Shown here: piece after piece, positions 1 through 4,694 of the stretch
Position numbering within the stretch: position 1 is the first letter of the stretch
Layout: the number at the start of each line of letters is the position of its first letter
Source: Archangium gephyra
Lineage (GTDB): Bacteria > Myxococcota > Myxococcia > Myxococcales > Myxococcaceae
Length of the DNA: 64,000 nucleotides
Direction of reading: 5' to 3'
Assembly (NCBI RefSeq): GCF_001027285.1
Contig: NZ_CP011509.1
Location: 3,108,501 to 3,172,500, forward strand
Made by a program: the position numbers and the translations under genes
Notes under the pieces: model-generated
The model's input: only the letters and a program-made list of their open reading frames with translations
What the model was told of the DNA's origin: nothing
Databases searched by the model: none

Positions 1-2
1 AT

Positions 3-83
3 GGCGGCATCGCCGTGGTGGCCATGCTCCTCGCGGGCATCTTCATCGGCCGCTTCACGGCGCGCCGGAAGGCCACGAGCTGA
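3..83 (+). CDS. C-terminal tail of a membrane protein (partial)
   Basis: The window opens inside a plus-strand frame that reads about 26 codons to a TGA at 81-83. The visible residues are a hydrophobic stretch (GIAVVAMLLAGIFIGRF) followed by a basic end (TARRKATS), which is the look of a last transmembrane helix with a cytoplasmic positive tail. Third codon positions are almost all G or C, so the frame is probably real. It overlaps the 3' end of the minus-strand PAP2/synthase fusion by 29 bases, tail to tail. The family cannot be told from this fragment. Confidence 0.45.
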   Translation, partial: GGIAVVAMLLAGIFIGRFTARRKATS

Positions 84-1560
84 CCCCGGCCGCCTCGCGC
101 AGGAACGGGAGTTTCCGGGGCAGGCGCTTCGCCCAGAAGCCCTCGATGGAGCGGTGGAACAGCCGCAGCAGGGCCACGCCGGAGCGTCCCTCCAGCCCGG
201 CCAGCTCCACCGCCGACTGGTCGAGCAGGGCGCGCGCCCTGCCGTGCTCGGCCACCAGCCAGGCCCGTCCCGCCACCGAGCTCACCAGGTCCTCGTAGCG
301 CAGGGGATCCAGACCCTCGGCCCGTACCGCTCGCGTCACCTCGGCTGGCACGTTGAGCAGGCCCTTGCGAAGGTCTTCGTGCAGGTCCCGCAGCGTGGAG
401 CACCAGCCGAACGCCTCGAGCAGGGACGGCGCATCGGACGCACGGACGTCGACTCCGGCCACGTGCAGCATCAGGCCCACCGACAGCAGGAAGGTGTCCC
501 GGTGGTGGGCGCGGAGGGCCTCGGCCTCGAGCTCCTGGCGGTGGAGCACGCGCTCGCGGTCCCTCCGCATGATGCGCACGAGCCGCACGGCATCGGCGCG
601 CGCCCCCTCGCCTTCGAGCCCGGTGAGGAACTCGCGGCCCAGCGTGGAGGCCACGTCCGTGCCGCTCCAGTGGCCGGTCTCCACCTGGACGAGAAGGGCG
701 TCCACCCACGCGAGCGGCTCTCCCGGAATGGGGCGATCCCCATCCAACACGTCATCCACCAGTTGGAGGAAGCAGAAGCCCGTCCGGGCCACCCGGGTGG
801 CGCGCCACCGGGGCAGCGAGTAGCGGTAGAGGCCCAGGGCGATCAGCAGGTAGCGCGGGTGGCGGCGGGAGAAGTGGTACAGCTCCCGGGCGCAGAGCGC
901 CTCCACCCGGAGCGTCTCGAGGAAGTCCGAGCGGGAGGCGCGGGCCAGCACGAAGCGCCACGTCCCCCAGGCGAGGAGCGCGCCCGCCACCAGGTCGGCC
1001 AGGTGGTGCTCGTGGATGAGCAGGGTGGACGCCGCGATGGCCGCGGCCCAGAGGCCGAACAGGCTCCGGGCGAGCCAGCCCCCGCGCTCGCCATAGGCCA
1101 GGGCGGCCGTGCACGCGAACGCCACGTGCAGCGAGGGCAGGTAGTTGCGCTCGAGGTTCATGGTGTCGGCCAGGAAGAAGACGCTGGCCCAGCTCCCGCT
1201 CACCTCGCGGGGCGGCCACGCCACCTCGACCGGGAGCACCAGGAAGCAGGCGGCGCCCACCACCGTCTCCAGACAGAGCGCGAGCACGAAGGGCACCATC
1301 TCGCGCCACGTCCGGAAGACGAGCAGCGAGAGCAGCAGCAGCACGTCCATGCTCACGTAGACGGCCGCCCAGGCGGGTACGAAGGGGATGTGCCGCTCGA
1401 AGGGCAGCTCCACGTGCACGCCCCCCGTGTAGAAGCCCGTCACCGCGCTCGCGCCGCCGTACACGAGCAGGAAGAAGAGTGAGAAGCCGAGCGCCATCGC
1501 GCCCGTGAGGACGAGTTCGTCACGGCGGGGCCAGCCCAGGAGGGGAGGGCGCGCGCTCAT
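55..1560 (-). CDS. PAP2-type phosphatase fused to squalene/phytoene synthase-like domain
   Basis: A 501-residue two-domain protein. Residues 15-205 are a multi-helix membrane domain with a PAP2_3/Aur1-like signature: PSLH at 142-145 and H185-x3-D189 in EHHLADLVAG, the motifs that carry the phosphatase histidines in this superfamily. Residues 215-501 resemble a head-to-head prenyl synthase, with aspartate motif 1 (LVDDVLDGD, about 267-275) and motif 2 (RDLHEDLRKG, about 391-400), which bind magnesium-diphosphate in squalene and phytoene synthases. Inferred role: condensation of prenyl diphosphates coupled to removal of a diphosphate at the membrane. The start is the ATG at 1560, in a 4-base ATGA overlap with the desaturase; the open frame continues upstream to 2100 but that part is antisense shadow. 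Domain calls are firm, substrate unknown. Confidence 0.82.
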   Translation of the reverse strand: MSARPPLLGWPRRDELVLTGAMALGFSLFFLLVYGGASAVTGFYTGGVHVELPFERHIPFVPAWAAVYVSMDVLLLLSLLVFRTWREMVPFVLALCLETVVGAACFLVLPVEVAWPPREVSGSWASVFFLADTMNLERNYLPSLHVAFACTAALAYGERGGWLARSLFGLWAAAIAASTLLIHEHHLADLVAGALLAWGTWRFVLARASRSDFLETLRVEALCARELYHFSRRHPRYLLIALGLYRYSLPRWRATRVARTGFCFLQLVDDVLDGDRPIPGEPLAWVDALLVQVETGHWSGTDVASTLGREFLTGLEGEGARADAVRLVRIMRRDRERVLHRQELEAEALRAHHRDTFLLSVGLMLHVAGVDVRASDAPSLLEAFGWCSTLRDLHEDLRKGLLNVPAEVTRAVRAEGLDPLRYEDLVSSVAGRAWLVAEHGRARALLDQSAVELAGLEGRSGVALLRLFHRSIEGFWAKRLPRKLPFLREAAGVSSWPSGAP

Positions 1561-2477
1561 CGCTCCTCCACGGGAGCGGGGAGGGGCTGGGGGCCTCGCC
1601 ACATGGACAGCCAGATGCGCAGGAAGGAGGGGCGGGGCACGTCCTCGTCCACGTAGCGGCCCAGGTAGAGCCAGGGCACGCGCGGGTGCCGGTGGTGGGC
1701 GCGGTGGTAGTGGTAGTTGAGGAACAGCCAGCGCACGGGCGTGGCCACGCGCAGGTCCCACGCTCCGTCGCGCACGTGCAGCGGGGACCAGGCATGGTCC
1801 GCGTACTGGAGCGAGCTCCAATTGACGGCGAACGCCGCGTAGCACAGCGCCTGGCCGGACAGGTTGAGGTCCAGCGCGAGCACCAGCCCGGCCTGCACGG
1901 CCAGCATGAGCAGGAGCTCGAGCCGGATGGTGGCGCCCGGCGCGTCCTCGAGCCGTCCGAGGTAGGCGTCGGCACCGGTCTGCTCGCCGTAGCGGGTGCC
2001 CGTGCCCCGGAGCCGTCGCAGCAAACTGGGGAAGAGTGCGAAGGCGAGGCAGCCCACCGGCACGAAGGCCCAGTAAAGCCCGGTGAGGATGGAGTACCAC
2101 TGCGCGTGCTTGAGGAAGCGGTTGTCCCCGGGGCGCAGGTAGTCGAACTGCTCCAGCTCGGTGCGGTTGTTGCGGTGGTGGGTGAGGTGGAAGGTGCGCT
2201 GCAGCGTGTACGAGGTGGGGAAGAAGGCCGCCGCGAGCCGCCCGAGCCAGTCATTGGCGCGCCGGGAGGAATGGAGCACGCCGTGCGTCGCCTCGTGGAG
2301 CAGCGAGAAGACGGTGTTGTTCACATAGGAGAAGGCACCGGCGGCCAGCAGCCGCGCGGCGAGGGACTCCGCGTGCGAGGCGAGCCAGAGGCACCCGGCA
2401 CAGGCGGCCAGGGCGGCGGCGAGGAGCACGGTGTTGAGCGTGGACGGAATGGGGGCGTCGTCACCCGTGCTCGTCAT
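1557..2477 (-). CDS. Membrane fatty-acid-desaturase-superfamily protein
   Basis: A 306-residue integral membrane di-iron protein of the desaturase/hydroxylase/ketolase superfamily. The three histidine clusters are visible: HEATH near residue 61, HLTHH near 97, and HYHRAHHRH near 255. Hydrophobic pairs surround them, as in fatty acid desaturases and carotenoid ketolases/hydroxylases. It is the middle gene of a three-gene operon: its ATG lies 17 bases inside the 3' end of the Rieske gene, and its stop overlaps the start of the PAP2/synthase fusion by 4 bases, so translation is probably coupled. The context favours a terpenoid or unusual lipid substrate over a normal phospholipid acyl chain, but this is inference; an ordinary acyl desaturase is possible. 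Confidence 0.8.
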   Translation of the reverse strand: MTSTGDDAPIPSTLNTVLLAAALAACAGCLWLASHAESLAARLLAAGAFSYVNNTVFSLLHEATHGVLHSSRRANDWLGRLAAAFFPTSYTLQRTFHLTHHRNNRTELEQFDYLRPGDNRFLKHAQWYSILTGLYWAFVPVGCLAFALFPSLLRRLRGTGTRYGEQTGADAYLGRLEDAPGATIRLELLLMLAVQAGLVLALDLNLSGQALCYAAFAVNWSSLQYADHAWSPLHVRDGAWDLRVATPVRWLFLNYHYHRAHHRHPRVPWLYLGRYVDEDVPRPSFLRIWLSMWRGPQPLPAPVEER

Positions 2478-3447
2478 CGGTGTCCTCCGGGAGTTGGGCG
2501 GCGAAGTCGAGCAGGTGGCGCAGCACGGGGTCGGCCACGGCGGCGCCCGGGTTGAAGCGCATCCCGTTGAGCACGGAGAGGTCCCTCCGCAGGAACGAGG
2601 TGAAGAGCCACCGCGACACGGCGAGTCGCAGCCGGTCGAGCCCCGGGACGCGGCCAGGAGGCGCGGCGAAGGACATCAGCACGGACACCCCCTCGGCATG
2701 GGGGCGGAACCCGGCGAGCAGGGCGCTGCGGGTGCGGCCGAGGTCGCTCTCCACGGACATGAGCGTCCCGCCATGGAGGGTGATGGTCACGCGGATGTGG
2801 TCGCGCGACAGCGCCTTCATCAACCGATCGCTGAGCCCCGTGCCGATGACGCGGGACGTGTAGCGCAGCCGGAGCGTGAACGGGTCCAGGCGCTCCACGG
2901 TGGGCGCGTCCCGCAGCTCGCGGTGATGCACGGTGCGCAGGTGCTCGATGTCGAAGGAGTTCGCCGCGATCGGCAGCCACGAGCACCCGACGGTCACGGG
3001 TGGACCGGTGCGCCAGCGCAGCTCGGGACTGCCCACCTCGGGCGGGGGGAAGAGGCTCACCGGCCCGTTGAACACGAGGATGGCGCCGTAGCGCTCCACC
3101 ACGGGGAATGCCCGCTGCCCGGGCCTGCCCGTGGCGTCAGAGCGTCCCGGCACCGCACGGCAGATGCCACCGCCGTCGAACCGCCAGTGGTGCAGCGGGC
3201 AGCGCAGGTGCTCGCCCATGACGGTGCCGTGCGCGAGGTGGGCCCCCATGTGGGCGCAGTGGGCGGAGAGGGCCTGGACGCGTCCGCTCTGGCCACGGAA
3301 GAGTACGAGCTCCCGCCCATCGAGGCTCCAGCCCATCACCTGTCCCGGCCGGAGGGCTTCGGACGGACACGCGAGGTACCAGGAGCGCAGCCGGGCCGGC
3401 TCGGAGCGACGGACCGGGTCCGCCCACGCCACGACATTCACCGCCAT
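2461..3447 (-). CDS. Rieske [2Fe-2S] non-haem iron oxygenase
   Basis: A 328-residue Rieske-type oxygenase. The N-terminal Rieske domain shows C-x-H (CAH, about 63-65) and C-x2-H (CPLHH, about 83-87), binding a 2Fe-2S cluster. The C-terminal part carries a mononuclear iron site of the usual form in NSFDIEHLRTVHH. Length and layout resemble single-component Rieske oxygenases such as KshA, Neverland or cholesterol 7-desaturase more than two-subunit aromatic dioxygenases. It is the first gene of a minus-strand operon with the desaturase and the PAP2/synthase fusion; no ferredoxin or reductase lies beside it. Transcription must start in the short gap before the divergent GspF-like gene. Function as an oxygenase is likely; the substrate is unknown. 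Confidence 0.82.
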   Translation of the reverse strand: MAVNVVAWADPVRRSEPARLRSWYLACPSEALRPGQVMGWSLDGRELVLFRGQSGRVQALSAHCAHMGAHLAHGTVMGEHLRCPLHHWRFDGGGICRAVPGRSDATGRPGQRAFPVVERYGAILVFNGPVSLFPPPEVGSPELRWRTGPPVTVGCSWLPIAANSFDIEHLRTVHHRELRDAPTVERLDPFTLRLRYTSRVIGTGLSDRLMKALSRDHIRVTITLHGGTLMSVESDLGRTRSALLAGFRPHAEGVSVLMSFAAPPGRVPGLDRLRLAVSRWLFTSFLRRDLSVLNGMRFNPGAAVADPVLRHLLDFAAQLPEDTDDEHG

Positions 3448-3521
3448 GGTGGAAACCTACCGGATGCTCCCAGGGTGGTCACCTCGTTCCCCGGAGCGGC
3501 CTGTTGGGAGAGAATCCTCCC

Positions 3522-4694
3522 ATGAACAAGCCGCAGCCTCCCCGGACACAGCCATCCTCCCCGGCGGCCAGACCCCAGGCGGGCGCTCCGGTCCGCGAGG
3601 CCGTCCGCACCGCGCGGCGCCACGTCCCGCTGGCCGAGGGGGAGACGTGGCTGGACAGCGCCTGGGCCCGGCATCCGCTCGTGGCGATGGCCCGGCACCG
3701 GCCGCGCCTCGTCTTCTTCCAGGGGCTGCACAGCATGATCCGGGCCGGGGTGGCGCTGCCCATCGCGTTCTCGGAGCTGTCGCGAGGCGCGGCGAAGGAT
3801 CCCTTCCGTCGCGCCGTGGCGCAGGTGGGCGAGGCCGTGGCCGCGGGCTCCGGCCTGGCCGAGGCGATGCGGCGGCAGCCCAGGTGGTTCGAGCCGCGGG
3901 TGGTGGAGCTGCTGGGCGCGGCGGAGGTCACGGGCACGCTCGAGTCGGCCCTGGCGCGCGTCACCGAGCAGCTGGAGGAGACGCAGCGGCTGCGCTGGCG
4001 CGCCGTCTCGATGTGCGCCTATCCCGCCTACCTGCTGGTCGCGTTCATCTTCGGCGGTGCCCTGCTGAGCACCGCGAGCAGCCTCATGGCCTCGGGGAAC
4101 ACGAACGACATCCTCGGGGTGTTCGTCTCGCACTTCCTCCAGAAGGTGTGGCTGGTGTTGTCCTTCGGGGTGGCGCTCTTCCTGCTGCCCCTGGTGCTGG
4201 TGTCGCCGGCCGTCGAGCCGCACTGGGAGCGGCTGCGCCCGCGCGTTCCCCTCCTGGGCCGTTTCCACCGGGAGTTGCAGGCCAGCCGCTTCAGCCTCGT
4301 GCTGGGCGTGGCGCTCGGGGCCGGCCTGGAGGCGGGGCGGAGTCTGGAGATGGCGCTCGAGGCCACTGGCAGCTCCCTGCTGCGCGGGCGCGTGAACCTG
4401 GCCCTCCACCGCCTCCGCTCCGGCGCCACCCTGACGGACGTGGTGGAGTGGCTCGACGTGCTCGATGGGACGTCGCTCCAGCAGCTCGCCACCGGGGAGC
4501 GGACCGGAGACCTGGAGCCCATTCTCGCCCAGGTGTCGCGAGGGCATTCCGAGTCCGCGATGCGGTGGCTGCGCACGCTCATGTTCGTGGTCATCGCGAT
4601 GCTGTCGGTGTTCCTCTTCGCCACCAACCTCGGCAAGGTCGCCGGGCTGCAGGGTGGCTACCAGCGCCAGCTCGAAGGGTTGAGCCGCGAATGA
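3522..4694 (+). CDS. Type II secretion system F (GspF/PilC) family protein, orphan
   Basis: A 390-residue inner-membrane protein with two copies of the T2SF fold: a helical cytoplasmic domain (residues 65-165), a membrane segment near 170-190, a second near 215-235, a second cytoplasmic repeat (about 255-355) and a final helix near 360-380. In type II secretion and type IV pili this platform protein contacts the ATPase and pseudopilins. No GspE, GspD or pseudopilin gene is nearby, so it is an orphan. A TTG 18 bases upstream is in frame, but the ATG at 3522 with GGGAGAG about 10 bases ahead is the better start. Its partners must be encoded elsewhere, or it serves another system. Confidence 0.75.
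   Translation: MNKPQPPRTQPSSPAARPQAGAPVREAVRTARRHVPLAEGETWLDSAWARHPLVAMARHRPRLVFFQGLHSMIRAGVALPIAFSELSRGAAKDPFRRAVAQVGEAVAAGSGLAEAMRRQPRWFEPRVVELLGAAEVTGTLESALARVTEQLEETQRLRWRAVSMCAYPAYLLVAFIFGGALLSTASSLMASGNTNDILGVFVSHFLQKVWLVLSFGVALFLLPLVLVSPAVEPHWERLRPRVPLLGRFHRELQASRFSLVLGVALGAGLEAGRSLEMALEATGSSLLRGRVNLALHRLRSGATLTDVVEWLDVLDGTSLQQLATGERTGDLEPILAQVSRGHSESAMRWLRTLMFVVIAMLSVFLFATNLGKVAGLQGGYQRQLEGLSRE

Follow-up and report, generated by a model that had tools for sequence, protein, structure and literature searches.

The operon considered here lies at the start of a 64,000-nucleotide stretch of Archangium gephyra DNA (contig NZ_CP011509.1, positions 3,108,501 to 3,172,500; hereafter the window), and its genes, domains and motifs are listed in Table 1. 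Three minus-strand genes occur in the order Rieske oxygenase, desaturase-like enzyme and a fusion protein in which a PAP2 domain precedes a squalene synthase (SQS)-like domain; the overlaps are exactly 17 nucleotides (2461-2477) and 4 nucleotides (1557-1560). Open reading frame (ORF) calls confirmed these gene positions and overlaps, which had been given in an original prediction, and its domain assignments were supported by Pfam for the Rieske, desaturase and PAP2 domains and by fold for the SQS-like domain. The ATG at 1560 was taken as the start of the fusion gene, and the resulting N-terminus aligns with those of the orthologues. A SnoaL-like gene is convergent with the fusion gene, with its stop codon at window positions 81-83 and a 29-nucleotide overlap (55-83) with the end of the fusion gene. 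The conserved unit is thus made up of four genes, and the SnoaL-like member at the window edge was absent from the original prediction.

Table 1 Features of the operon, with one related locus (window positions unless another locus is named)
Feature	Position	Strand	Description
Rieske non-haem iron oxygenase	2461-3447	-	328 aa; [2Fe-2S] ligands C64/H66/C83/H86; mononuclear Fe motif N163-x2-D166-x2-H169-x4-H174; Pfam Rieske 3.2e-20
Membrane di-iron desaturase/hydroxylase-like enzyme	1557-2477	-	306 aa; HEATH, HLTHH and HRAHH boxes plus NWSSLQYADH; Pfam FA_desaturase 3.3e-25
PAP2 + squalene/phytoene-synthase (SQS)-fold fusion	55-1560	-	501 aa; start ATG 1560
PAP2_3 lipid phosphatase-like domain, fusion N-terminus	934-1560	-	six predicted transmembrane helices; Pfam PAP2_3 1.4e-8 (domain alone)
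PAP2 motif PSLH (residues 142-145)	1126-1137	-	invariant at 36/36 loci, 35 distinct
PAP2 motif HEHHLAD (residues 183-189)	994-1014	-	predicted extracytoplasmic; first H and final D invariant at 36/36 loci, 35 distinct
Squalene/phytoene-synthase-fold domain, fusion C-terminus (residues 210-501)	55-933	-	Pfam SQS_PSY 2.3e-4, below cut-off; AlphaFold2 (AF2) model; VIA structural list
First Asp-rich motif DDVLD (residues 269-273)	742-756	-	three D invariant at 37/37 loci, 36 distinct
Second Asp-rich motif RDLHED (residues 391-396)	373-390	-	R, D, L, E and D invariant at 37/37 loci, 36 distinct
SnoaL/DUF4440-like gene, 3' end	1-83	+	197 aa; whole gene L034:7991-8584 = G000:C1:3107990-3108583; Pfam DUF4440 9.7e-10, SnoaL_2 1.7e-8
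Desaturase-start/SQS-like fused frame, natural deletion	L110:9634-10545		gene reading

Gene products and the fold of the SQS-like domain

The SQS-like domain required structural support because its sequence match to Pfam SQS_PSY is weak, the fusion scoring 5.2e-4 and 20.2 bits (21.4 in a second scan) against a curated cut-off of 26. The AF2 model of the fusion (5 sequences) reached block means of 83-94 in the predicted local distance difference test (pLDDT) for residues 261-480. The best rows of the VIA structural list were LvqB4 (Z 16.3), CqsB4 (16.1), HpnC (16.0), a CrtM-like protein (15.6) and CrtM (15.2), aligned over about 248-270 residues; rows within Z 1 of one another count as tied, and the tool notes that for helical folds a Z of about 13 or less is weak. 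The top 25 rows were all enzymes of the squalene/phytoene synthase (SQS/PSY) fold (Z 16.3 to 13.7, 243-270 residues), followed by class I terpene synthases (epi-isozizaene synthase, Z 13.4). These matches reject an unrelated helical fold, the outcome that would have undone the original assignment. Foldseek with the whole fusion model returned nothing at E <= 0.001 (best 0.047), and sequence alone cannot place the domain because its profile (A1) gave only chance matches to sequences of the PDB (best E 0.46). In an hhalign comparison of A1 with the CrtB-like protein of the same genome, only the half containing the second motif was aligned, with a probability of 48%.

The motifs DDxLD and RDLxED were detected at all 38 loci (37 distinct), including L110, and both align in all three MAFFT modes with those of the two other SQS_PSY members of the genome, in which the second motif reads RDVKED or KDVRED. 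One of these paralogues, which we take to be CrtB-like, stands beside a presumed CrtI-like gene, and the other we take, from sequence resemblance, to be squalene synthase-like. In the clearest MAFFT mode, the YCYxVAGxVG helix of the paralogues is replaced in the SQS-like domain, and GWCS stands in place of the QLTN that precedes the second motif. The strict PROSITE patterns PS01044 and PS01045 and a relaxed form of the first matched 0 of 38 loci (37 distinct). As controls, the CrtB-like paralogue matched the strict second and relaxed first patterns but not the strict first, and the squalene synthase-like paralogue matched the strict and relaxed first patterns but not the strict second. Relaxing the second pattern gave matches at all 38 loci, through the first Asp-rich motif, and was uninformative. 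Because both family signatures are absent despite the fold and the Asp-rich motifs, the domain has the SQS/PSY fold but is no canonical squalene or phytoene synthase. It appears to be a divergent relative of enzymes catalysing the entry step of sterol and carotenoid biosynthesis.

The PAP2 domain within the whole fusion matched Pfam PAP2_3 at 4.1e-8 (33.7 bits, cut-off 27), with profile matches to LpxE (3.2e-5) and, weakly, to PgpB and Aur1. It shares one ORF with the SQS-like domain at all 36 myxobacterial loci, which are 35 distinct loci in that L032 and L091 are the same locus. The first classical PAP2 motif is KxxxxxxRP, and PDP1 is a further member of the PAP2 superfamily; conservation was scored on PSLH and H...D only. 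Charge counts over 36 sequences gave a positive-inside pattern that puts the two ends of the PAP2 domain in the cytoplasm and its motifs on the other side of the membrane. The topology was drawn from helix positions and charge counts because the PAP2 half of the AF2 model is untrusted (pLDDT block means about 30-56); the VIA list covers the SQS-like domain and is no test of this half. The PAP2 active site is accordingly predicted to be extracytoplasmic and the SQS-like domain cytoplasmic. With this arrangement, cytoplasmic synthesis followed by a phosphatase step at the outer face fits better than direct hand-over, and condensation followed by dephosphorylation within one fused protein, as originally envisaged, is not supported, since its two sites are predicted on opposite sides of the membrane.

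The Rieske protein scored 72.3 bits against Pfam Rieske (cut-off 20.3) and carries both the Rieske centre and the D-x2-H-x4-H site, the ligands C, H, C, H, D, H and H being invariant at 37 of 37 loci (36 distinct). A family-level match to sterol-acting Rieske enzymes was absent: SdmA reached 53.9 bits against a cut-off of 600 over residues 22-129 only, and the best stretch of the comparison with KshA spanned only residues 21-145, with no family-level match over the catalytic domain. The sterol-like product suggested in the original prediction, for which Rieske-domain similarity is the sole sign, is possible. The desaturase scored 89.7 bits against Pfam FA_desaturase (cut-off 29.7), and the histidines of its three boxes are invariant in 37/37 loci (36 distinct). 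Every NCBIfam match to a named desaturase subfamily fell far under its cut-off (best CrtW, 28.5 versus 350), and no match was found among PDB sequences; its AF2 model was poor (pLDDT 50) and was excluded from the structure search. Across the three minus-strand genes, no NCBIfam model fitted the Rieske protein, the desaturase or the fusion at its cut-off, the fusion being without any match. The SnoaL-like protein is hydrophobic at its N-terminus and again in a segment near its C-terminus, after which basic residues follow, and is apparently exported and membrane-anchored.

Upstream of the operon, the product of a divergent gene at window positions 3504-4694 (+) resembles type II secretion protein F (Pfam T2SSF). 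Such a gene was also seen within several kb of the operon in the other genomes read from g1, the genus of the window (L035-L037), and was not seen in L038-L040.

Distribution, constraint and separable parts

The desaturase profile matched 50 places, spread over 44 of the 195 Myxococcota genomes, and all 50 neighbourhoods were fetched and read. The order Rieske-desaturase-PAP2.SQS was present in 35/35 myxobacterial places of this desaturase class; the original prediction would have fallen had the genes not been co-conserved, and they are. The SQS-like domain was found at none of the other 15 desaturase places, at 12 of which PAP2 adjoins the desaturase, within a single frame in L044 and L067, and at three of which it does not (L058-L060). 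A SnoaL-like gene lies inside the fetched stretch at 31 of the 35 operons; of the four outside it, those of G111, G113 and G117 sit on separate contigs, and that of G116 shares the operon's contig at a distance of about 15 kb. Separate profile searches for the SQS-like domain and the SnoaL-like protein returned the identical 36 of 195 Myxococcota genomes, comprising 4 of 6 in g1, 2 of 4 in g11, 14 in g23 and 16 in g26. As the genomes are related, these are not 36 independent events, but the distribution is patchy inside genera, and the joint absence of both within g1 and g11 suggests joint gain or loss, and points to the four-gene set being gained or lost together. The ratio of nonsynonymous to synonymous substitution rates (dN/dS), calculated with our own NG86 script and rough at high GC, was 0.08-0.55 in 32 of 32 domain comparisons, all below 1. 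A chance overlap of three ORFs is rejected by the conserved order, co-occurrence, motif invariance and dN/dS.

Two exceptions separate the parts of the module. In L033, a contig from an Elusimicrobia metagenome-assembled genome (MAG), a second, ring-hydroxylating-type Rieske oxygenase is followed in one direction by homologues of the Rieske (32% identity), SnoaL-like (49%), desaturase (59%) and SQS-like (43%) proteins; the SQS-like protein stands alone (277 aa), and the module holds no PAP2. The SQS-like domain occurs in one of 340 genomes of that phylum, the one with L033. Contamination is thought unlikely because L068, on the same contig, shares its gene order with G467 (L072) of the same phylum. 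In L110 (genome G124), the Rieske gene is followed by a frame in which the initial codons of the desaturase lead directly into the SQS-like domain, and then by the SnoaL-like gene; this arrangement is most simply explained by an internal in-frame deletion that removed desaturase and PAP2. The three remaining domains have dN/dS of 0.35-0.55, and G124 also holds a separate PAP2-desaturase pair (L090). Among the 37 distinct cases (36 from Myxococcota and L033), the Rieske, SQS-like and SnoaL-like members are present in 37, the desaturase of this class in 36 and an in-module PAP2 in 35. The best explanation is a conserved core of Rieske, SQS-like and SnoaL-like members with desaturase and PAP2 as a separable sub-module. 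The original claim that the three overlapping genes must act together gives way here, as PAP2 and desaturase are not indispensable partners. The G124 deletion and the stand-alone Elusimicrobia form are ready-made comparisons for dissecting the parts.

The desaturase and PAP2 also belong to a wider family. In two myxobacteria, relatives of both are joined in a single frame (L044:8616-10145 and L067:9516-11066), a sign that the two domains cooperate. A mobilizable plasmid of Citrobacter portucalensis (L109:10127-21513; NZ_CP134684.1) carries a group of GH3, five radical SAM, N-acetyltransferase, PAP2, SnoaL-like and desaturase genes that appears to be a biosynthetic cluster not yet described, with three parts in common with the operon. 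A Rieske relative, GH3, AurF and a second desaturase relative occur on the L033 contig about 31 kb from the module (L068:3528-11976), together with a GNAT-like gene (by eye, no Pfam match) and a radical SAM-like gene (by eye). In Burkholderia arboris (L108:654-9564; NZ_CP101525.1), a stretch without gene annotation in the collection used encodes a protein of 591 aa that combines a Pfam FA_desaturase domain with an N-terminus judged PAP2-like by eye; GNAT-, GH3- and Rieske-like genes (labelled by eye) and another desaturase relative lie nearby. The desaturase-PAP2-SnoaL set thus seems to predate the myxobacterial operon and to be more mobile, with the SQS-like domain as a local addition.

Proposed pathway and rival explanations

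We tentatively propose that the four-gene module makes an oxidised, prenyl-derived compound of the cell envelope. From the enzyme classes, conservation and gene linkage observed above, we infer a possible acceptor, order of steps, product and role for the SnoaL-like protein. The cytoplasmic SQS-fold domain would bind a prenyl diphosphate through its two Asp-rich motifs, as its fold and metal motifs suggest, and may transfer the prenyl group to a lipophilic acceptor in the manner of phytoene-synthase-like (PSL) prenyltransferases, rather than carry out ordinary squalene or phytoene synthesis. In PMC7466098 and PMC10156859, these enzymes are described as prenylating non-prenyl acceptors with the same fold in biosynthetic clusters. 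Two enzymes of established class, the membrane di-iron protein and the Rieske oxygenase, would then desaturate or hydroxylate the product. With the predicted topology, the PAP2 domain could remove or exchange phosphate at the outer face of the inner membrane, and the SnoaL-like protein, apparently tethered outside by its signal-like N-terminus and C-terminal hydrophobic segment, may isomerise, cyclise or hold the product there.

Several points weigh against this proposal. Our confidence is no more than tentative because the wider desaturase-PAP2-SnoaL family weakens the claim that all of the enzymes act on a prenyl lipid; relatives of the desaturase pair with PAP2 and no SQS-like gene at 12 of the 15 other places, and the substrate of desaturase and PAP2 may be something other than a prenyl lipid. 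The operon contains no recognisable prenyl-diphosphate synthase, reductase or ferredoxin, and the neighbouring genes read suggest no aromatic acceptor. SQS_PSY matched at E <= 0.1 in only two of six members (best 4.7e-5), and active sites on opposite faces of the membrane leave the fusion of PAP2 to the SQS-like domain unexplained.

Among the rivals, head-to-head condensation, as originally predicted, is unlikely. Two prenyl diphosphates would yield a presqualene-type intermediate or hydrocarbon, which PAP2 would dephosphorylate before the Rieske and desaturase enzymes oxidised the chain. The SQS/PSY fold and the two invariant Asp-rich motifs agree with it, and HpnC and CrtM are among the best neighbours, but HpnC is tied with the aromatic (carbazole) prenyltransferases LvqB4 and CqsB4. 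Neither signature was matched in the 37 distinct loci, the VAGxVG helix and QLTN are replaced, and CrtB-like and squalene synthase-like genes already exist in the genome. According to PMC8641950, PDP1 hydrolyses farnesyl diphosphate (FPP) and geranylgeranyl diphosphate (GGPP) to alcohols; however, its active site is cytosolic, and that of the operon's PAP2 domain is predicted on the opposite face. The module moreover lacks PAP2 in L033 and L110.

Quite unlikely in our judgement is acyl-lipid remodelling, in which the substrate of desaturase and PAP2 would be a phospholipid or a lipid resembling ceramide, and the SQS-fold domain would have taken on a different substrate or a role in binding. 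The desaturase relatives beside or fused to PAP2 described above, the Citrobacter plasmid clustering and the weak Aur1 match of the PAP2 domain favour it, and one of eight PAP2 relatives, not that of the window, matches phosphoinositol dihydroceramide synthase at 1.6e-5. However, the metal-binding motifs of the SQS fold are strictly conserved, which a binding role would not need, and the SQS-like domain persists in L110 after the loss of desaturase and PAP2.

An improbable alternative has the SQS-fold domain acting on a single prenyl diphosphate, as a class I terpene synthase or a phosphatase, the resulting alcohol or hydrocarbon then being oxidised. In its favour, the signature for the second substrate is missing, class I terpene synthases come next in the structural list, and YisP is an SQS-family farnesyl diphosphate phosphatase; however, both sequence (SQS_PSY) and fold are closer to SQS/PSY, and the Z score of epi-isozizaene synthase approaches the range regarded as weak.

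Comparison with known systems

No description of the operon was found in full-text searches of open-licence papers, and the original statement that no characterised pathway holds this gene set agrees with the literature searched; the available portions of PMC10435759, on Archangium lansinium clusters, make no mention of it. Mining rules that apply Pfam thresholds for SQS/PSY would probably overlook the operon because the SQS-like domain scores under the cut-off, although 36 of 195 Myxococcota genomes carry it. From the enzyme set, a metabolite is predicted for which a comparison of mutant with parent offers a direct search. A broader proposal, arguable but doubtful, is that a functionally new clade within the head-to-head synthase fold begins with the SQS-like domain. 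It would be a prenyltransferase tethered to the membrane, working with a Rieske enzyme and an extracytoplasmic SnoaL-like protein to produce an undescribed class of envelope prenyl lipids in Myxococcaceae-type bacteria and, by old transfer, in an Elusimicrobia lineage.

The Citrobacter plasmid cluster resembles the operon in its desaturase (41% identical to the window or own-genome protein), PAP2 (30%) and SnoaL-like (30%) members, whereas no Rieske or SQS-like gene is annotated in the 24 kb read and five radical SAM genes are present instead. PDP1/PPAPDC2 is likewise a membrane lipid phosphatase acting on prenyl diphosphates (PMC8641950), with a cytosolic site, whereas the PAP2 site of the operon is predicted to lie outside and is fused to a synthase domain. 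HpnC, CrtM, CrtB and SQS share the fold (the first two at the Z scores above) and both Asp-rich motifs, but differ in the family signatures, matched at 0 of 37 distinct loci in the SQS-like domain, and in the weak Pfam score of the latter. The PSL prenyltransferases CqsB4, LvqB4, NzsG and NozPT differ in sequence (14-15% identity over aligned residues) and in context: no carbazole, indole or diketopiperazine genes were recognised near the operon, whose domain is fused to a membrane PAP2 and adjoins a membrane desaturase. They share with it the SQS/PSY fold and the two Asp-rich motifs, and CqsB4 and LvqB4, tied with HpnC, are its best structural neighbours.

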